DNA from: JAFGIT01 sp016929465 [NCBI: Candidatus Coatesbacteria bacterium]
GTDB taxonomy: Bacteria; B130-G9
DNA length: 7,135 bases
Direction: 5' to 3'
Assembly (NCBI GenBank): GCA_016929465.1
Contig: JAFGIT010000192.1
Span: forward strand, 1 to 7,135
In this document: positions 1 through 7,016 of the stretch, in pieces
Numbering within the stretch: the stretch's first letter is position 1
How the letters are laid out: each line of letters begins with the position of its first letter
Position numbers and translations under genes: made by a program
The notes under the pieces: model-generated
The model's input: the letters and a program-made list of their open reading frames with translations, nothing else
Told to the model about the DNA's origin: nothing
The model's database searches: none

Positions 1-110
1 CCGGTGAATGGACAGCGCATGGGCCGGTCTCGGCAAGGTTGCCCCTGGACCTCGGATCAATCGAACTGCCAACCGCCAACTGCCAACTGCTAACGACAAA
101 TGCCCGATAG
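1..110 (+). CDS. C-terminal end of a secreted beta-helix/FN3-like protein (partial, upstream paralogue)
   Basis: Only the last 35 codons and the TAG stop (108-110) are visible; the gene starts left of the window. The visible residues run GEWTAHGPVSARLPLDLG and then SIELPTANCQLLTTNAR. They match the C-terminus of the complete gene at 709-2265 in 32 of 35 positions, so this is the end of a paralogue. Between the two copies 13 codons differ silently and 3 differ in amino acid, which shows the frame is translated and conserved. The matching region in the complete paralogue is the last strand of a fibronectin-type-III-like domain plus a short tail. The tail is encoded by AACTGCC heptads. The stop overlaps the ribosome binding site of the 38-codon gene that follows. 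The fold of the missing N-terminal part is inferred from the paralogue and could differ. Confidence 0.8.
   Translation, partial: GEWTAHGPVSARLPLDLGSIELPTANCQLLTTNAR
64..94 (+). repeat. AACTGCC heptad array inside the 3' end of the partial gene
   Basis: Four heptads and a partial unit are seen: AACTGCC, AACCGCC, AACTGCC, AACTGCT, AAC. Because 7 is not a multiple of 3, the array translates into the seven-residue word LPTANCQ. The same array with the same number of units lies at 2219-2249. Confidence 0.85.
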
Positions 111-120
111 GAGAAGATAA

Positions 121-237
121 ATGAAGATAATGACCTACGAAAAACCAAAGGTGATGACTCTCGACGGCGGTGCGATCTTGAGTGCGCTGGGCCCCAGCCT
201 TTCCTGCACTGGCTTCGGGGGCTCGGCTAGCTGTTAG
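121..237 (+). CDS. 38-residue two-cysteine peptide, RiPP-precursor-like (copy 1)
   Basis: ATG at 121 is preceded by AGGAG (109-113) with a 7-base spacer; the stop is TAG at 235-237. The N-terminal half (MKIMTYEKPKVMTLDGGAIL) looks like a leader. It has a YEKP-V start of the kind seen in many short precursor peptides. The C-terminal half is small, Ser/Gly-rich and carries Cys29 and a terminal Cys38 (GPSLSCTGFGGSASC). It has no signal peptide and no membrane segment. The copy at 2276 differs at 14 of 117 bases: nine codons change silently and four change residue (K10R, G17D, I19L, A22T). All four replacements fall before residue 24. This supports real translation and strong constraint on the C-terminus. 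Functions that fit are a precursor of a thioether, lanthionine or disulfide ring peptide, or a small signal peptide. No modifying enzyme is in the window, so the class cannot be fixed. The gene is probably translationally coupled to the upstream protein gene. Confidence 0.75.
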   Translation: MKIMTYEKPKVMTLDGGAILSALGPSLSCTGFGGSASC

Positions 238-239
238 GT

Positions 240-288
240 AGTTCAAGGTTCGAAGTTCAAAGTTCAAGGCTCAAAGTTCGAAGTTAGT
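240..288 (+). repeat. Seven AGTTCAA-type heptads between peptide gene and terminator (copy 1)
   Basis: Seven consecutive 7-base units can be read: AGTTCAA, GGTTCGA, AGTTCAA, AGTTCAA, GGCTCAA, AGTTCGA, AGTTAGT. The array starts 3 bases after the peptide stop codon and ends 5 bases before the terminator stem. An array of exactly seven units occupies the same place at 2395-2443, but the variant units differ. Confidence 0.9.
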
Positions 289-293
289 TCGGA

Positions 294-323
294 GGGGCGG
301 AGCAATCCGCCCCTTTTCTTTTT
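294..323 (+). terminator. Rho-independent terminator of cassette 1
   Basis: A perfect 8-bp stem GGGGCGGA (294-301) and TCCGCCCC (306-313) closes a GCAA tetraloop. TTTTCTTTTT (314-323) follows directly. The stem and loop are identical to those at 2450-2469. Confidence 0.92.
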
Positions 324-422
324 GTCAGTAGGCCATCGCATCCGTCGGGCGCCGGGGCGATGTTGATGGCAGCAGAGTCCCGCCCAATTTAGCGGCCAAT
401 TCGTTCGAAATTTGCACAAAAC

Positions 423-451
423 TTGACGATCGGCCCATTTTTCGGCATACT
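423..451 (+). promoter_or_regulatory. Candidate sigma70-type promoter for the beta-helix gene
   Basis: TTGACG (423-428) is followed after exactly 17 bases by CATACT (446-451), which matches 5 of 6 and 4 of 6 consensus positions. It lies downstream of the cassette 1 terminator and would start a leader of about 250 bases before the ATG at 709. The assignment rests on consensus alone. Confidence 0.4.
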
Positions 452-457
452 TAATTG

Positions 458-708
458 GAGAGGGAAAGCGAAACTGAAGATAGCGCATGGGCAAAGAGCC
501 CATACCCTATCATCTTCTTCACACCGTAGCGTTCTCATCGTATGACCTTCTCCATACGGGGATCTGTGTCTTGGTTTTCGAGGTCTTCATTTTGAGCTGG
601 AAGTGAGGTGAGAAGGTCAACCATTCGTTAGAGAAAACTATCTCTCTTTTCTATTTTGCCCGAGTTTCCTTGGGGCATTTCAATCAGAACAAACAGGAGG
701 AACGAAAC
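458..708 (+). promoter_or_regulatory. Structured 5' leader of the beta-helix gene, possible cis-regulatory RNA
   Basis: No gene is seen between 324 and 708. Downstream of the candidate promoter there are three inverted repeats. ATGGGC/GCCCAT (487-492 and 498-503) forms a hairpin with an AAAGA loop. TGACCTTCTC (543-552) is perfectly complementary to GAGAAGGTCA (610-619) across a 57-base interior that can form a small CTTC/GAAG stem (585-588 and 600-603). AGAGA/TCTCT (630-634 and 641-645) is followed by CTTTTCTATTTT, a weak terminator-like shape. TTCTC at 548-552 could pair alternatively with GAGAA at 631-635, which is the geometry of an attenuator. I recognise no known riboswitch consensus. 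The start of the transcript is assumed from the candidate promoter. Confidence 0.35.
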
Positions 709-2265
709 ATGTATGCAAAGAGGACTCTGTTCTCTGCCATTGCGGTCGTGACTATCTTCGGGTTGATTGTCACGAGCGCGATCGCAGCAGACTATTACGT
801 TGACGGAAGTTCCGGCAGCGACGCCAATGGCGGTACGGGCTGGGGCGATGCCTTTGCCACGATACAGAAAGGTATCGACGCCTGCTCTGGCACGACGGCA
901 GACATAGTGCATGTCGCAGCGGCGACATATACCGAGAACATCGGCCTGGACGACTACGTCAAGCTTCTCGGCGGCTATCCGCCGGGCGGCGGCACTCGCG
1001 ATTCCTATACCTACGAGACGGTCATCGACGGCGGGGCAAGCGGGATGGTCGTGGATATCGCCTATAGCGAAGATGTCACCGTCGATGGATTCACAATACG
1101 GAATGGCTACGCAGTGGACGGCGCCGGTTTCCGAATTTACAATTGCGATAGGGGGCCGACGATTTCGAATAATCTCATAGTCGATAACAAGGCCTGGGAT
1201 CCCAGCAATGGTCGCGGAGGTGGTATCTACAGCGGCTACGCCTCACCGATAATAAGAGACAACATCATCATGGACAACGTGGCCGCGACGCGCGGAGGAG
1301 GGATCTACTCCTGGCGCAGTTGGCCAACAATCACGAATTGCCTCATAGCTCGCAATGAAACGACCAACGAATATAGTGGGCACTACGGCGGAGCCGGGAT
1401 CTATTTCGAGGCGATCAATTACGACTACTCGTGCGCACCGGAGGTCATAAATTGCACCATAGCCGACAACAAGGCAATTGAGGGAAACGCGGGAGCAGGA
1501 GTTTATTCCATAGTATCCCCATACTGCGAACCGGTTCTACTCAACTGCATCATCTGGCATAACGGAACTCGGGACGACGTTTACGGCGTGCTCGATTCGG
1601 ATGTCAGCTATTGCGATATCAGCACCGGCACCTGGACGGGAGCGGGCATGATCAATCAGGACCCGCTGTTCGTCCCGATATCGGAGAGACCTTTCGAGTA
1701 TTACCTTGCCCACATAGGACCTCAGGCGGGAGATTCGCCCTGTCTCGACGCCGGCCTCGGTGACGTCGCGGACTACGGCATGGTCGGCACAACGACTTGC
1801 ACGGACGGCAGCCCCGACGGTGACGACGATGGCAGCGACAGGACCGGCCCCATTGACATGGGCTACCACTATCCAAAGGGGTATGGCGGCGATGACGGCA
1901 CCTGGATTCGGCTGGTCTCCTTCACAGCAAATGCAAGAGACGACAAGATCGTCCTGCACTGGGAGACGGGCGCTGAGATCGACAACGCGGGATTTGCGAT
2001 ATTCCGAACCATCGGCAGAAGCAGGGACTACGAGCGCATCAGCCGGCTGATCCCCGCGGAGGGCTCCTCTACAACGGGAGCATCATACAGGTTCATCGAT
2101 GAGAATGTTCGTCCCGGCGTCATCTATAGATACTGGCTGGTTGACATTGACACGGTGGGCGAGTGGACGGCACACGGGCCAGTGAGGGCGAGGCTGCCCC
2201 TGGACCTGGGATCAATCGAACTGCCAACTGCTAACTGCCAACTGCTAACAAAAGACGCCCGATAG
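709..2265 (+). CDS. Secreted right-handed parallel beta-helix protein with C-terminal FN3-like domain
   Basis: The start is ATG 709, because AGGAGG (695-700) sits 8 bases upstream and the protein then opens with a signal peptide (MYAKR, hydrophobic core, cleavage after AIA at about residue 26). An in-frame TTG at 670 would add 13 polar residues before it. The 518-residue product begins after cleavage with YYVDGSSGSDANGGTGW, the opening typical of DUF1565-like surface beta-helix proteins. Residues of about 105-320 contain pectate-lyase-like coils with a recurring GGGIYS...P.I..N.I..DN pattern (near 151-165, 170-190, 196-215, 228-255, 262-285). A DMGYHYP motif at 383-389 closes this part after an Asp-rich stretch (370-377) that may bind calcium. 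Residues of about 399-496 form a fibronectin-like domain (VSFTANARDDKIVLHWET, EIDNAGFAIFR). The final SIELPTANCQLL comes from a heptad array. No catalytic triad is evident, so a surface or matrix-binding role is more likely than an enzyme. The gene is coupled to the 38-codon gene at 2276. Confidence 0.85.
   Translation: MYAKRTLFSAIAVVTIFGLIVTSAIAADYYVDGSSGSDANGGTGWGDAFATIQKGIDACSGTTADIVHVAAATYTENIGLDDYVKLLGGYPPGGGTRDSYTYETVIDGGASGMVVDIAYSEDVTVDGFTIRNGYAVDGAGFRIYNCDRGPTISNNLIVDNKAWDPSNGRGGGIYSGYASPIIRDNIIMDNVAATRGGGIYSWRSWPTITNCLIARNETTNEYSGHYGGAGIYFEAINYDYSCAPEVINCTIADNKAIEGNAGAGVYSIVSPYCEPVLLNCIIWHNGTRDDVYGVLDSDVSYCDISTGTWTGAGMINQDPLFVPISERPFEYYLAHIGPQAGDSPCLDAGLGDVADYGMVGTTTCTDGSPDGDDDGSDRTGPIDMGYHYPKGYGGDDGTWIRLVSFTANARDDKIVLHWETGAEIDNAGFAIFRTIGRSRDYERISRLIPAEGSSTTGASYRFIDENVRPGVIYRYWLVDIDTVGEWTAHGPVRARLPLDLGSIELPTANCQLLTKDAR
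2219..2249 (+). repeat. AACTGCC heptad array inside the 3' end of the beta-helix gene
   Basis: The units are AACTGCC, AACTGCT, AACTGCC, AACTGCT, AAC. Array length and position relative to the stop codon equal those of the copy at 64-94. The encoded residues (ELPTANCQLL) are unchanged although two codons (ACC/ACT and GCC/GCT) differ. Confidence 0.85.
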
Positions 2266-2268
2266 GAG
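2264..2268 (+). promoter_or_regulatory. Shine-Dalgarno overlapping the upstream stop codon
   Basis: AGGAG begins inside the TAG stop of the beta-helix gene and lies 7 bases before the peptide ATG at 2276. The identical arrangement with the identical spacing is at 109-113. This is the classic geometry for translational coupling, and it decides the peptide start. Confidence 0.75.
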
Positions 2269-2275
2269 AATAGAG

Positions 2276-2392
2276 ATGAAGATAATGACCTACGAGAAAC
2301 CACGGGTGATGACCCTTGACGGCGATGCTCTCTTGAGCACGCTTGGCCCGAGCCTTTCCTGCACTGGCTTTGGGGGATCGGCTAGCTGTTAG
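2276..2392 (+). CDS. 38-residue two-cysteine peptide, RiPP-precursor-like (copy 2)
   Basis: ATG at 2276 and TAG at 2390-2392 give 38 residues (MKIMTYEKPRVMTLDGDALL, then STLGPSLSCTGFGGSASC). Residues 24-38 are identical to copy 1, although the DNA there differs silently at three codons (Pro25, Phe32, Gly34). Cys29 and the terminal Cys38 would enclose a segment of eight residues, TGFGGSAS. Ser26, Ser28, Thr30, Ser35 and Ser37 could serve as dehydration or heterocyclisation sites if a lanthipeptide- or azole-type enzyme acts on it. A simple disulfide is equally possible. The leader-like half keeps LDG at 14-16 and ends in LGP before the conserved part. The gene is the last of its transcript: heptads and a terminator follow. 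The function is unknown to me. Confidence 0.77.
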   Translation: MKIMTYEKPRVMTLDGDALLSTLGPSLSCTGFGGSASC

Positions 2393-2394
2393 GT

Positions 2395-2443
2395 AGTTCA
2401 AAGTTCAAAGTTCAGAGTTCAAAGTTCAAGGTTAGAAGTTAGA
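2395..2443 (+). repeat. Seven AGTTCAA-type heptads between peptide gene and terminator (copy 2)
   Basis: The units are AGTTCAA, AGTTCAA, AGTTCAG, AGTTCAA, AGTTCAA, GGTTAGA, AGTTAGA. The unit count (seven) and the start 3 bases after the stop codon are the same as at 240-288, while the order of variant units differs. Confidence 0.9.
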
Positions 2444-2449
2444 TTGAAG

Positions 2450-2480
2450 GGGGCGGAGCAATCCGCCCCTTTTCTATATT
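2450..2480 (+). terminator. Rho-independent terminator of cassette 2
   Basis: The perfect stem GGGGCGGA (2450-2457) and TCCGCCCC (2462-2469) closes a GCAA loop and is followed by TTTTCTATATT. Stem and loop are identical to 294-313. The U-tract is less clean than in copy 1. Confidence 0.88.
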
Positions 2481-3090: not shown

Positions 3091-3984
3091 ATGAAACGAA
3101 TTGTATGGCTGCTCCTGGTAACAGTACTAGTTCTCACCAACTGCGCATTCGCAGTCGATACTTATAAGATCGGCGTCCTTGCGAAACGCGGGCCGGTCAA
3201 AGCCATGGAGCAATGGAAGGCCACTGCGGATTTTTTGACATCCCATATAGTCGGGAAGGAGTTCAAGATAGTCCCGCTCGGATTCGATGAGGTCAATCCC
3301 GCGATAGAAAAAGGAACTATCGACTTCTTCTTGGTCAATTCATCGATGTTCGTGACCGCAAAGGTCAAATACGGCGCAGCACCTATCGCCACGATGATCA
3401 ACTCAAGACAAGGGCAACCTCTCAAGGCATTTGGGGGAGTCATACTGACGCTTGCTGACAATGGCTCTATCAACAAGGTAAAAGACCTAAAGGGAAAGAC
3501 CTTCATGGCCGTCGAGAAAGGTTCTTTCGGTGGCTGGCAGATGGCCTATAAAGAGATGCTGGACGCCGGTATCGATCCATTCAAGGACTGCACCAGCCTC
3601 CAATTCGGAGGAAAGCACGATAACGTAGTGCTCGCGGTACAGAATGGTGCGATTGATGCAGGGACAGTTCGTACAGACACTCTGGAGCGGATGGCAGCCG
3701 AGGGGCTGGTTGATCTGAGCGAATTCAAGATAATCTCCAAAAAAGACCACGTCGGTTTCCCCTTTGTTTGCAGCACTCCCCTTTACCCCGAGTGGCCGTT
3801 GGCGAAGATCAAGAAAACCTCTGATGCTCTTGCAGAAGAGGTAGTCGCCGCACTCACGAAGATGGCGTCAACTGAGAAAGCAGCCAAAGATGCGAAGATA
3901 GTCGGTTGGACCTCTCCACTTGATTACGGTCCTGTAGAGGACCTTCAAAAGTCCCTGAAAGTGGGAGCATACGCTGCGAACTGA
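3091..3984 (+). CDS. Periplasmic PhnD/TtrS-like solute-binding protein
   Basis: This 297-residue protein starts at ATG 3091, with GGAGGA (3080-3085) five bases upstream. A signal peptide (KR, then WLLLVTVLVL, cleavage near AFA at about 21) sends it to the periplasm; Cys18 does not sit in a good lipobox. The mature part is a two-lobed type II binding fold of the phosphonate-binding (PhnD, PF12974-like) class. KIGVLAKRGPVKAMEQW (26-42) opens lobe 1, GTIDFFLVNSSMFV (75-88) and a KVKDLKGKTFMAVEKGSFGGW stretch (from 129) follow, and AVQNGAIDAGTVRTDTLE (182-199) lies in lobe 2. The C-terminal GWTSPLDYGPVEDL (272-285) resembles the sensor subgroup found fused to histidine kinases such as TtrS, more than transport PhnD. 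No permease or ATPase gene is adjacent; the next gene is a chemoreceptor 173 bases downstream. I infer a ligand-presenting role. The ligand (an oxyanion or phosphonate-like compound) is not determined. Confidence 0.85.
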   Translation: MKRIVWLLLVTVLVLTNCAFAVDTYKIGVLAKRGPVKAMEQWKATADFLTSHIVGKEFKIVPLGFDEVNPAIEKGTIDFFLVNSSMFVTAKVKYGAAPIATMINSRQGQPLKAFGGVILTLADNGSINKVKDLKGKTFMAVEKGSFGGWQMAYKEMLDAGIDPFKDCTSLQFGGKHDNVVLAVQNGAIDAGTVRTDTLERMAAEGLVDLSEFKIISKKDHVGFPFVCSTPLYPEWPLAKIKKTSDALAEEVVAALTKMASTEKAAKDAKIVGWTSPLDYGPVEDLQKSLKVGAYAAN

Positions 3985-4008
3985 TGGTTTTGCTTCGATA
4001 TAAATCGT

Positions 4009-4048
4009 GCGCCCGTGCAGCCGGCAATGCGTCGGTCCGCATGGGCGC
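4009..4048 (+). other. Stem-loop between binding-protein and chemoreceptor genes
   Basis: GCGCCCGTGC (4009-4018) pairs with GCATGGGCGC (4039-4048) over 10 bp with one G-T wobble, and CCG/CGG (4021-4023 and 4033-4035) can pair inside the loop. No T-run follows, so it is not a typical intrinsic terminator. It could attenuate transcription or protect the 3' end of the upstream message. Confidence 0.5.
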
Positions 4049-4157
4049 CGAATCACCCATTGGCCACACTCTTATTGCTCCAGAGACAGCTGTTGGGAGA
4101 CTACTTCATAGCGATTAGTGGCTAAACTGGACACAGGGAGGATTGGAGGATTATTTC

Positions 4158-6128
4158 ATGCTAAAGAAAATCATTACCGGCAGCCTGCGTCAGCGCCTGC
4201 TGACGCCCACCGGCGTCATCCTCGCCCTCTGCATCATCGGGCTGTCTGTTCTCTTGATCGTTGTCCAGCAAGGGCAACTTAACCAATTGAGAGATGCTGT
4301 GCTCTCATCGATCAAGATGAGCAACGACGAGACGAGGGACGCTTTCGCGACTATGGATGAGCAAGTGAATGTCTCATTGCGACACATGTCCGAGACCGCC
4401 TGCACGTCCATCGCGAATGCGACGCGGGAGGGCCTTCATCAACAAAAAGACTCACTAGGAAGGGACCTGGAGAATGCTCTGCGGGAGAATGCAAACTCGA
4501 TCGCGGACCTTCTGGCCCAGGTTGCTCCAAGGGCGATTCTCGCCAATGACTTCCTCGAGCTGATAAACTTCTCCAAGTCAGCTTCCGGAAATCCGGATAT
4601 AGTATATGCGGTCTTCCTAAAACCAGATGGCGATCCTCTCACCCGATATCTGGACCGCCAGAATCCTGATGTCAGGGAATACATCAAGAATGGCAACGGC
4701 AATTCGAGCATAGAGAAGGCAATTGATGGCTCTCGAAAAGACAAGGCCGTGTTCTTTGTAGAAAAGACGGTTGCTATCGAGGGCCAGGACCTCGGGAAGA
4801 TACTGCTTTGCGTCAGCAAGAGGTCTTCGATGGACAAGTTGAAGGAAATGGAGGTGAGCTTCTCTTCTCTAATCGACAGCAACAAGAGGGAAGTAGAGAG
4901 TGTCATCGACTCTGAATCCGGCAAAGTGACCCGAAAGATGCAGGACATGATCCGCGAATTGGACAGCAAGAATGTGACTGCCGCAAAAGCCATCGGCGAT
5001 ACAATGAACAAGTCATGTGATACGATCAAATCGAAGACCAAGCAAATCTCAGCCGGAGTGGGCGGCGCATCTATAGCGGCGGTATTCGTCATTCTCTTTC
5101 TCGTGGTAACCAAGATCTCGAAGCGGATAAATCACCTCGTGTCAGATCTGCATGTTAGCGCGAGAGACGTCGCGACTTCTTCTGGCCAGATATCTTCCAC
5201 TAGTGAATCCCTTGCTGAATGGGCATCGCAACAAGCGTCGTCGATTGAGGAGACATCCGCTTCACTCGAGGAAATGTCTGCCATGACCAAGCAAAACGCG
5301 CAGGATGCGGTCGAAGTCAATAGCCTGATGAAGAAGGCTAGAACCATCATCGGCAACGCAAACTGCTCAATGCAGCAGCTGACTTCCTCGATGAAAGACA
5401 TCAGCGCAGCGAGCGAGAAAACTCAGAAGATCGTCAAGACGATAGACGAAATAGCATTTCAAACCAATCTACTGGCTTTGAACGCGGCAGTCGAAGCGGC
5501 AAGAGCGGGAGAGGCCGGCGCGGGCTTCTCCGTTGTTGCGAACGAAGTGCGCAATCTCGCCGGCCGGGCAGCAGGGGCAGCGCGCAGCACTGCTGAGCTC
5601 ATTGAAGGAACAGTCAGGCTCGTGAATGACGGCTCCTCGATAGTCGAGCGAACAAATAAGGAGTTCAGCGAGGTAGAGACCTCCACTATCGATGTCGGCG
5701 AGCTGATCGATTCGATCTCCAGAGGCTCCAATGAGAACGCCCAAGGCATTCAGCAATTAACTGACACAGCCGCAGAAATGGACAAAGTAACTCAGAAGAC
5801 GGCTGCCAGCGCCGAGGAATCTGCCGCTGCTTCATTGGACATGTTCTCACAGACCGAGCAGATGAGAAAGGTCGTCGACGAACTCGTTGCGCTGGTTAGC
5901 GGCTCGGGAACTCAATGGCAAAAAGACGAGGGCGAAGTCTCTTCCGAGCAAAGAGCCTGGGATGAATCCGATCGGGCATTTTCGCTGAAAAGCGGTGATA
6001 TATTCGAACAAGATTGCAGCAATTCGGATGGTGAGGGAATCAGAGGCTCTCAACCATATAAAGCCGAGGATGACCCAGTTCTAAAGAATTCTGGGTCAAA
6101 TGAAGACCCACGGTGTGAGTGCAGCTGA
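4158..6128 (+). CDS. Methyl-accepting chemotaxis protein, HAMP-less, with periplasmic sensor
   Basis: The start is ATG 4158: GGAGGA (4145-4150) lies 7 bases upstream, whereas an in-frame TTG at 4143 has no spaced ribosome binding site. The product has 656 residues. TM1 spans about 19-36 and TM2 about 300-318. The periplasmic part contains a long helical stretch (about 40-120), a Cache/PAS-like core (about 120-222; IVYAVFLKPDGDPLTRYL and a later DLGKILLCVSKRSS) and a second coiled stretch (about 224-298). The cytoplasmic signalling coil follows TM2 almost directly, without a recognisable HAMP domain. The hairpin tip EIAFQTNLLALNAAVEAARA (431-450), followed by GEAGAGFSVVANEVRNLAGR, is the CheA/CheW-binding signature. 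Likely methylation regions are SSIEETSASLEE (361-372) and ASAEESAAAS (550-559). A Ser/Asp/Glu-rich tail of about 70 residues ends in CECS and lacks a CheR-docking pentapeptide. The gene follows a periplasmic binding protein that may be its ligand-bearing partner. Confidence 0.92.
   Translation: MLKKIITGSLRQRLLTPTGVILALCIIGLSVLLIVVQQGQLNQLRDAVLSSIKMSNDETRDAFATMDEQVNVSLRHMSETACTSIANATREGLHQQKDSLGRDLENALRENANSIADLLAQVAPRAILANDFLELINFSKSASGNPDIVYAVFLKPDGDPLTRYLDRQNPDVREYIKNGNGNSSIEKAIDGSRKDKAVFFVEKTVAIEGQDLGKILLCVSKRSSMDKLKEMEVSFSSLIDSNKREVESVIDSESGKVTRKMQDMIRELDSKNVTAAKAIGDTMNKSCDTIKSKTKQISAGVGGASIAAVFVILFLVVTKISKRINHLVSDLHVSARDVATSSGQISSTSESLAEWASQQASSIEETSASLEEMSAMTKQNAQDAVEVNSLMKKARTIIGNANCSMQQLTSSMKDISAASEKTQKIVKTIDEIAFQTNLLALNAAVEAARAGEAGAGFSVVANEVRNLAGRAAGAARSTAELIEGTVRLVNDGSSIVERTNKEFSEVETSTIDVGELIDSISRGSNENAQGIQQLTDTAAEMDKVTQKTAASAEESAAASLDMFSQTEQMRKVVDELVALVSGSGTQWQKDEGEVSSEQRAWDESDRAFSLKSGDIFEQDCSNSDGEGIRGSQPYKAEDDPVLKNSGSNEDPRCECS
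6072..6097 (+). repeat. Inverted repeat in the 3' end of the chemoreceptor gene
   Basis: GACCCAG (6072-6078) pairs with CTGGGTC (6091-6097). Inside, TTC and GAA can pair around a TAAA loop with a TT bulge. It lies in the poorly conserved tail, 31 bases before the stop codon, and is not followed by a T-run. It could be fortuitous. Confidence 0.4.
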
Positions 6129-6383: not shown

Positions 6384-7016
6384 ATGAGTCGAATTGGGAA
6401 TCCGCAGAGACTTCCATTTAGGGTGATTCTCTTCGCCTTGATCCTGTTGACGGGGATTGCGGCAGTCGGTTACGAGATTCTGAATGGCCAGTGTCCGATG
6501 AAGGTAGATGGCCTGCTGGCGAGCGAGATGAATGAGCTGGCAAGCAAGTGCGGTGGGTGCCCATCAGCTCAAAAGGGCACCTGCGCCGCCAAAAGCGCCC
6601 CGTGCGCAGTAACTGAAAGCGCTCCCAATCCTGAGGATAGGGCAGTCATCTTTATCTTGCTCGACAATGCTTCTTCAGAGACCGCGAGCAAGGCGGCTGA
6701 GATGCTCGAGTCACTCACAGCGAGACTTGTCGAGGCGAACCAGCCGGTTCTTTCAATGACACTTCGCAAGGGTGAGCGGGGCTTCGACCAGATGATCAGG
6801 CAATTCTCGATCAAATCGCTGCCGACGGTTGTTGCCCTTAGTCAGGGCTGCAAATCGACCGTGGTCAAGACCGAGGACATAGGAGAGGATGCCCTCAATC
6901 GGGCATTCGCGAATGCCTCGAAGGACACCGGTTGTGTGCCCACAGCGTCCACCCCGGCTGCGCCGACCTGCAGCGCCACTTGCCACGGCAATCTTCAAAC
7001 GCCAGAGAGCGAATAA
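6384..7016 (+). CDS. Membrane-anchored cysteine-rich thioredoxin-fold-like protein
   Basis: ATG at 6384 follows GGAG (6373-6376) with a 7-base spacer. The 210 residues begin with a short basic stretch and one hydrophobic segment (about 13-29), so the protein is an inner-membrane anchor or uncleaved export signal with the rest outside. A cysteine-rich linker follows (Cys37, 56, 59, 67, 74, including CGGC at 56-59). Residues of about 87-178 fit a thioredoxin fold: strand AVIFILLD (87-94), a helix (100-118), strand PVLSMTLR (121-128), helix, then SIKSLPTVVAL (142-152) with the Pro147 expected for the cis-proline loop. The position of the usual CxxC after the first strand is NASS (95-98), so the classic redox motif is missing there. 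The C-terminus adds Cys184, Cys196 and Cys200 (CSATC). It may be a redox, disulfide or metal-handling protein; CGGC could substitute as a mobile dithiol. The fold call rests on pattern alone. It follows a terminator and is probably transcribed alone. Confidence 0.7.
   Translation: MSRIGNPQRLPFRVILFALILLTGIAAVGYEILNGQCPMKVDGLLASEMNELASKCGGCPSAQKGTCAAKSAPCAVTESAPNPEDRAVIFILLDNASSETASKAAEMLESLTARLVEANQPVLSMTLRKGERGFDQMIRQFSIKSLPTVVALSQGCKSTVVKTEDIGEDALNRAFANASKDTGCVPTASTPAAPTCSATCHGNLQTPESE

Follow-up and report, generated by a model that had tools for sequence, protein, structure and literature searches.

Dispersed genes for two-cysteine peptides, paired with genes of secreted FN3-domain proteins in Candidatus Coatesbacteria, as a probable radical SAM peptide system

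We analyzed a 7,135-nucleotide stretch of DNA (hereafter the window), which is the entire contig C328 (JAFGIT010000192.1) of a Candidatus Coatesbacteria genome, JAFGIT01 sp016929465 (G000; fragmented, 3.19 Mb in 423 contigs, 86% complete); nothing is readable to the left of its position 1. The window carries two copies of a gene for a 38-residue peptide with two cysteines, each located behind a gene whose product ends in a fibronectin type III (FN3)-like domain. This arrangement had been pointed out in an earlier note made from the window alone; it is confirmed, and it matters more than was first apparent. The peptide is probably the precursor of a ribosomally synthesized and post-translationally modified peptide (RiPP) that is modified by a radical S-adenosylmethionine (radical SAM) enzyme and linked to the export or display of proteins with an FN3 domain. 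The genomic evidence comprises coding conservation of the peptide, linkage of its genes to FN3-domain genes, a maturation operon in all four genomes of the family, and distant operons joining a precursor, an FN3-domain protein and a radical SAM enzyme. These genomic data give good support to the link with the operon and are the basis on which the chemistry, the leader cut and any attachment are predicted.

The two units of the window contain the following features:

3..110, forward strand: end of the first secreted protein, its last 35 residues, part of the FN3-like domain, cut by the contig edge (open-ended open reading frame)
121..237, forward strand: putative peptide precursor gene 1, 38 amino acids, two Cys, leader with YEKPKVMTL, core LGPSLSCTGFGGSASC (open reading frame; query of the genome search)
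240..285, forward strand: AGTTCAA heptad repeats, period 7, 6.6 copies
291..316 (repeat copy 294-319), forward strand: terminator-like stem-loop 1 (terminator scan, repeat search)
709..2265, forward strand: secreted beta-helix protein with a hydrophobic N-terminus and a C-terminal FN3-like domain (Pfam Beta_helix 44.3 bits, DUF1565 23.3 bits)
1891..2199, forward strand: FN3-like C-terminal domain (AlphaFold2; PDB matches; profile A2, E 1.5e-48, a value that is not independent, the profile including the window sequence itself)
2276..2392, forward strand: putative peptide precursor gene 2, 38 amino acids, two Cys (open reading frame; own-genome search E 5.7e-19)
2395..2433, forward strand: AGTTCAA heptad repeats, period 7, 5.6 copies
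2450..2475, forward strand: stem-loop copy 2, repeat family D6, equal to copy 1 at 26/26 nucleotides (repeat search; absent from the terminator scan list)

Each unit thus consists of a protein end, a 38-codon peptide gene, heptads and an identical stem-loop, with coordinates and repeats as the earlier note had described them. The match between the C-terminal 35 residues of the two upstream proteins was likewise reproduced from translations of the open reading frames (32/35 residues equal). The repeated unit, 295 nucleotides from positions 3 and 2158, is 85% identical. The two peptide genes are 88% identical in DNA and differ in 13 of 38 codons, nine of the 13 being synonymous differences. The ribosome binding site of peptide gene 2 overlaps the stop codon of the upstream gene (TAGGAG). 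The beta-helix of the protein encoded at 709-2265 is right-handed; 21 residues follow its FN3-like domain, the last one being Arg. The terminator scan listed only the first stem-loop of the two units, and the three stem-loops found by it in the region, compared to a mean of 2.1 in shuffled sequences, are not above chance.

A search of the genome with the window peptide revealed 15 places on seven contigs, corresponding to 14 intact genes and one truncated copy (C354). The family comprises three more genomes (G001, G002 and G003; all four are drafts, 83-95% complete), in which a peptide profile built from G000 only matched at seven, five and two places. Because one of the seven places (C74 of G001) is truncated, the family contains 27 intact peptide genes and two remnants (G000 C354 and G001 C74). 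At E 0.01 the same profile matched in 4/4 genomes inside the family and in 0/94 outside it. Among named contigs of GTDB, five loci were detected; four are in the metagenome-assembled genome AUK292 and one is in Candidatus Coatesbacteria B130_G9, and they probably lie within the four family genomes. The aligned peptides have a consensus close to YExPxVxTLxxxxIxSxLGPSLSCTGFGGSxSC, and the core sequence of the family is GPSLSCTGFGGSASC. Most copies are preceded by a plausible start codon and a sequence resembling a ribosome binding site.

The core DNA of 27 copies (26 from intact genes and one from a remnant) was compared by codon position. All 27 cores, from four genomes, differ in DNA; together with the 15 places in one genome, this makes the arrangement more than a chance or local one. 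At codon positions 1, 2 and 3 the minor base has a mean fraction of 0.077, 0.034 and 0.426, respectively, the values at positions 1 and 2 being lowered somewhat by the choice of copies with an amino-acid pattern, which omitted one divergent intact gene (C209:5619). This third-position variation and the mostly synonymous differences within the window therefore indicate selection on amino acids. The peptide gene family is under coding constraint, with a conserved leader and core, and is not the repeat debris that the earlier note had named as a finding that would speak against its proposal. Three copies with a lost or replaced cysteine (L020 7489-7614, L056 1277-1399 and L016 5619-5732) are perhaps decaying or altered in role.

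All 27 intact peptide genes adjoin a gene, or a piece of one, that carries a common C-terminal FN3-like domain of about 100 residues. The domain lies within 500 nucleotides of 21 of the 27 peptide genes, a distance that takes in only about 0.4-0.85% of each genome; the remaining six genes adjoin the beginning of a partner gene or, in the case of window copy 1, the end of the cut gene. The proposed pairing is thus real and recurs in the genome and its relatives, and no intact peptide gene lacks a linked partner; the other finding that the earlier note had named as adverse, unlinked peptide genes, was thus not made either. What changed is the identity of the partner. Ten FN3-domain proteins encoded on peptide contigs were scanned, and seven of them are beta-helix proteins (one match of the seven is below the cut-off and accompanied by DUF1565), two are C25-type proteases and one is a papain-like protease. 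Two more FN3-domain partners, beyond the ten scanned, are also C25-type. Because proteases of both types carry it too, what the partners have in common is the C-terminal FN3-like domain, and the beta-helix was rejected as the defining partner. The gene order is also reversed at some loci, with the peptide gene upstream of its partner.

An AlphaFold2 model of the window FN3-like domain is all-beta, with a mean predicted local distance difference test score (pLDDT) of 90.3. Its structure matches in the PDB are FN3 and immunoglobulin-like domains with modest E-values (best 4.7e-4); the first one listed is peptidylarginine deiminase of Porphyromonas gingivalis, a cargo of the type IX secretion system (T9SS). 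The domain ends at most 60 residues from the protein end in 31/32, 16/21 and 21/21 proteins of three sets (from the family and from the more distant genomes G044, G189 and G321, described below), and the tails that follow it in the partners are short and often end in a basic residue. The last residue is Arg or Lys in 22/29 partners, compared to 18/98 for the remaining predicted genes of these contigs (Fisher p 2e-8, kinship ignored); the 29 are 31 FN3-domain proteins minus two irregular ones (L060), and the 98 are predicted open reading frames of >=200 amino acids, not curated. These ends may partly be a by-product of TAGGAG, in which the stop codon and the ribosome binding site overlap. They are also found in proteins with no downstream peptide and with other codons. 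Arg or Lys is last in 12/21 family FN3-domain proteins from peptide-less loci, and Lys in 18/21 FN3-domain proteins of G044, G189 and G321. A CAACTGC-type microsatellite enters the coding ends of several FN3-domain genes (window 2219-2249, L054, L055, L056 and L063) and seems to shift the last residues of their products (PTANCQL...).

Matches to PqqD were detected in 4/4 family genomes. Each genome contains one locus with a stand-alone PqqD protein (about 100 amino acids) and a PqqD-radical SAM-SPASM protein of 462-463 amino acids; in three of the four it is the sole PqqD locus found, and G001 has an extra PqqD. Downstream of the two genes, again in 4/4 genomes, are genes for an HprK-like kinase (402-418 amino acids) and a C25 protease (about 1080 amino acids, hydrophobic N-terminus). 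A gene for an S26-like peptidase is next in 3/4 genomes; the G003 contig stops short of its place. The operon of G000 is divided between contigs C64 and C360. Pfam and NCBIfam models were run on the G002 operon proteins, and the other genomes were judged by alignment or reading. In the alignments the radical SAM enzymes keep a CNLRCxHC motif and the C25 proteases keep GHG and CLNG motifs, which we take to hold the catalytic His and Cys. The nearest NCBIfam model to the C25 protease of G002 is the T9SS sortase PorU (257.5 bits, cut-off 420). The suggestion of the earlier note that the peptide is a modified product fits such an operon. Radical SAM genes, which the note had suggested looking for to the left of the window, are present in the genome, in an operon separate from the peptide genes.

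Outside the family, genes for a precursor, a recognition element and a maturase are genetically linked in G044, G139 and G189. G189 was reached by a kinase profile and encodes, in succession, a 75-residue precursor with ...YIPPEVITYSSDEILEELG..., a radical SAM enzyme, a kinase and an FN3-domain protein; the sole PqqD domain at this operon is fused to the radical SAM enzyme. A profile of the FN3-like domain matched 51/386 genomes at E 1e-12 and led to G139, where the order is PqqD, precursor, FN3-domain protein, radical SAM enzyme. G044, reached by a mixed leader profile together with PqqD, has seven genes in a row: PqqD, precursor, FN3-domain protein, radical SAM enzyme, kinase, C25 protease and S26-like peptidase, with the enzymes in the same order as in the lineage of the window. 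Pfam confirmed PqqD, radical SAM-SPASM and C25 in G044 and matched the peptidase below cut-off. Identity of the distant enzymes to the G002 proteins is 28-37% for the radical SAM enzyme, 22-23% for the kinase, 29-31% for the C25 protease and 22% for the peptidase.

The precursors of the three distant lineages have the same kind of leader, YxxPxVIT...LG. When a family-only peptide profile was run over 1040 open reading frames of the G044, G139 and G189 loci, which had been selected after their precursors were noticed, the three precursors ranked 1-3 (E 7e-8, 2.6e-4 and 2.5e-3; next 0.88). Profiles A6 and A7 were built with G044/G189 and G139/G189 sequences, respectively, and match those by construction. 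The match of the mixed leader profile A7 to the type-A precursor of G044 (E 4.6e-9) is independent of the profile members, and so is the ranking by the family-only profile. Weak A7 matches in G051, G147 and G158 (E 9e-4 to 0.01) were not accepted; the G158 context (L189) shows no FN3-domain gene.

A second, unrelated core was found in G044 and G189, and the pairing with FN3-domain genes recurs there. This multi-copy peptide type, YKKPxIxxVKLVPEEAVLGVCKSDTGAGPNQSxCIIPQCFNPGS, has eight full-length copies in G044, and an FN3-domain gene adjoins 7/7 of those inspected. Its loci (G044: L149, L150, L151, L152, L162 and L163; G189: L153-L155) have FN3-domain neighbours mostly with Lys-rich tails. 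All eight aligned copies have a C-terminal Ser, in contrast to the window type, which ends in Cys. One G189 copy (L155) has an FN3-domain gene on one side and a gene for a PorU-like C25 protease on the other (NCBIfam PorU 316.1 bits, cut-off 420). In G321 (L238, C171 113-4040) the gene order is second-type peptide, one short gene, C25 protease; the product of the short gene, by reading, ends like a PEP-CTERM signal. Relatives of the second type, weaker ones included, occur in 14/386 genomes at E 0.001. Loci L167-L177 of several genomes contain PqqD, a radical SAM enzyme, a precursor with an EEAVLxxCK-like leader, an HprK-like kinase and an S26-like peptidase, as judged by gene order and start sequences and, for L174, by hidden Markov models; the L174 precursor has no NCBIfam match. 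No FN3-domain gene was seen in the 3 kb read at these clusters, and the RiPP core of the system is therefore wider than the FN3 pairing.

Several known systems come close to this one. Radical SAM-SPASM/PqqD RiPP systems (mycofactocin, StsB-type sactipeptide, SynChlorMet) also have a short precursor with a leader and a Cys-containing core, PqqD, a PqqD-fused radical SAM-SPASM enzyme and an HprK-related kinase. In contrast to them, the precursors described here have many dispersed gene copies, which are paired with genes of secreted proteins, the operon includes a PorU-like C25 protease, and the radical SAM enzyme scores far below the NCBIfam cut-offs (for G002, nearest to the mycofactocin maturase, 133.6 bits with a cut-off of 265, among the matches listed, 25 of 84). 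A SynChlorMet cassette was rejected: ScmD, ScmE and ScmF scored 31 of 100, 120.6 of 400 and 89 of 400 bits, and the kinase had no ScmC match at E 0.01. We place the system among the radical SAM RiPPs; unusual in its layout are the dispersal of the precursor genes and their pairing with cargo genes. In the open-access literature, most subscription journals being outside the scope, no description of this pairing of peptide and FN3-domain protein was found.

The system shares with T9SS a C25 protease, nearest to PorU, and a cargo set in which C25 proteases with a C-terminal domain occur. The FN3-like domain also occurs in proteins of SprA-positive genomes, where it is followed by 88-108 more residues in 16/16 proteins (five genomes); in the one such protein scanned this region is a T9SS-type sorting domain (Pfam). 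An FN3-domain protein of G151, a genome outside the SprA test, has a short tail instead. In the systems described here, by contrast, the domain is terminal, radical SAM RiPP genes are in the operon, and the window protein has no match to the Pfam model Por_Secre_tail. The search for SprA gave 0/4 family genomes, none in G044 and G321, a match below cut-off in G189, and matches over cut-off in G139, G329, G322, G047 and G289 (5/8 comparison genomes); these come from a second run, with genomes containing T9SS-tailed FN3 proteins added, the first run having matched nowhere, controls included, and the 14 named controls again gave 0. Membership in T9SS was rejected on the absence of SprA matches from the four draft genomes of the family and the sub-cut-off PorU score of the G002 protease. 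The peptide operon and SprA are not mutually exclusive, because G139 holds both.

The YxxP motif of the leader is a feature of lasso peptides. Lasso systems with a tailoring kinase (paeninodin) share PqqD-like leader binding (PMC5067487) and a precursor kinase acting on a C-terminal Ser (PMC9266682). A lasso peptide was rejected: neither a B2 protease nor an Asn-synthetase-like cyclase is present among the five G002 operon proteins scanned, and the common core, if it starts at the Gly of LGP, has no Asp or Glu at positions 7-9. A lasso-like cluster, L101 (G001:C54, 1132-4815), with HprK-like, B2-like, PqqD and Asn-synthetase-like genes named by reading, is separate from the operon, was seen only in G001 and accounts for the extra PqqD of that genome. 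LanM, LanB and LanC were not found among the operon proteins scanned; no genome-wide search for them was made.

How the enzymes act on the peptide, what modification they make, where the leader is cut and how the peptide may serve surface display are inferred as follows. The N-terminal half of the peptide (YExPxVxTL....I..xLG) would be a leader bound by the PqqD-type domains, by analogy with lasso systems (PMC5067487). The PqqD-radical SAM-SPASM enzyme, judging by its family, would modify the core of Cys, Ser, Thr and Gly, and the HprK-like kinase may phosphorylate the precursor, in parallel with the lasso-peptide kinase (PMC9266682). The S26-like peptidase, the secreted PorU-like C25 protease or both may cut and export the peptide. 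Judging by the linkage of the genes, the peptide then most likely acts on FN3-domain proteins, in their export, surface retention or tailoring. A separate operon encodes each of these enzymes once, and the many precursor genes are in tandem with those of secreted FN3-domain proteins.

Several points weigh against this scheme. Modification, leader cut and export are predictions from the genes, no exporter for the peptide was identified, and no Pfam or NCBIfam model matches the peptide. The two cysteines are not conserved in every copy: Tyr (L056) or His (C209:5619) replaces the first one, and the C275 copy has lost the last. In the lineage of the window the surroundings of the operon yielded no peptide gene, the evidence there being co-occurrence within genomes, and each genome gives four to eight matches to SPASM-type radical SAM models, so another enzyme could act. 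Reading of 7 kb in G139 revealed neither a kinase nor a C25 gene. In G044 Pfam gave no PqqD domain in the radical SAM enzyme and no HPr-kinase match for the kinase; since Pfam matches are lacking or below cut-off, the kinase and peptidase of G044 are assigned by weaker profile or BLAST similarity (E 1.9e-12 and 2.9e-6). A peptide is within 500 nucleotides of only 19/35 strong FN3-like domains (20/54 of all). The domain therefore does not require a neighbouring peptide, and linkage of every FN3-like domain to one was rejected. At 20 loci around such domains with no known peptide, a subset of them, a sensitive profile gave no convincing peptide (best E 3.5).

Three other explanations were weighed against the exported-protein-coupled RiPP. 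That the peptide genes are a functionless repetitive element or a leftover of tandem duplication is very improbable. The window units are indeed a recent duplication and two copies are truncated, but the cores vary mostly at third codon positions, most copies have plausible translation signals, and related precursors are located inside operons of distant lineages; repeat debris was rejected on the codon-position variation. A secreted toxin or signal, similar to a bacteriocin or a pheromone, with the FN3 proteins as merely co-regulated neighbours or delivery partners, is an unlikely but serious candidate. Size, leader and enzyme set resemble those of ordinary RiPP clusters, and the L167-L177 clusters have no FN3-domain gene in the 3 kb read. 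However, one genome has 14 copies whose cores are nearly identical, all of them adjoining an FN3 gene or a piece of one; this is unlike a diversifying toxin arsenal, and the FN3 pairing recurs with an unrelated core.

An explanation given the same low probability is covalent attachment of the modified peptide to the secreted proteins, with the C25 protease as a sortase cutting near the tail of the FN3 protein, as PorU does when it attaches anionic lipopolysaccharide (A-LPS) to T9SS cargo. The maturation operons of the family genomes and G044 all encode a C25 protease, and a C25 gene is directly behind a peptide gene in G189 (L155) and one gene behind in G321 (L238). Gingipain-type C25 enzymes prefer Arg or Lys, and the excess of these residues at partner C-termini is consistent with such a cut. 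PorU of P. gingivalis is the protein PG0026. According to PMC4560394, PG0026 was proposed to be sortase-like, and in P. gingivalis mutants with no A-LPS peptides from the medium become attached at cargo C-termini, which was taken as a sortase-like mechanism. On the other hand, the PorU scores of the G002 and G189 proteases are below the cut-off, a plain protease would look alike, no attachment site was identified, and Arg or Lys also ends FN3-domain proteins from peptide-less loci. Marginally less probable still is the more specific proposal of SprA-independent finishing, in which the PorU-like C25 protease would ligate the radical SAM-modified peptide to the C-terminus of the FN3 protein and the RiPP would be a covalent tag or anchor.

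The rest of the window encodes other proteins. A PhnD-type periplasmic binding protein (Pfam Phosphonate-bd, 148 bits) and then a methyl-accepting chemotaxis protein are encoded at 3091-6128 and perhaps form a binding-protein/chemoreceptor pair. A 210-residue Cys-rich protein with a hydrophobic N-terminal segment, encoded at 6384-7016, has no confident family match.

RiPPs are normally free products, made from one or a few precursors whose genes are next to those of the enzymes. In the present system each enzyme is single-copy, and precursor genes are found throughout the genome alongside those of a class of exported proteins; two core types and several distant lineages were seen. Such a layout suggests a so far undescribed route by which surface proteins are finished or decorated. 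Should the peptide tag or escort these proteins, cell-surface assembly would include RiPP chemistry, and a role for PorU-like C25 proteases in bacteria that lack SprA would be suggested.

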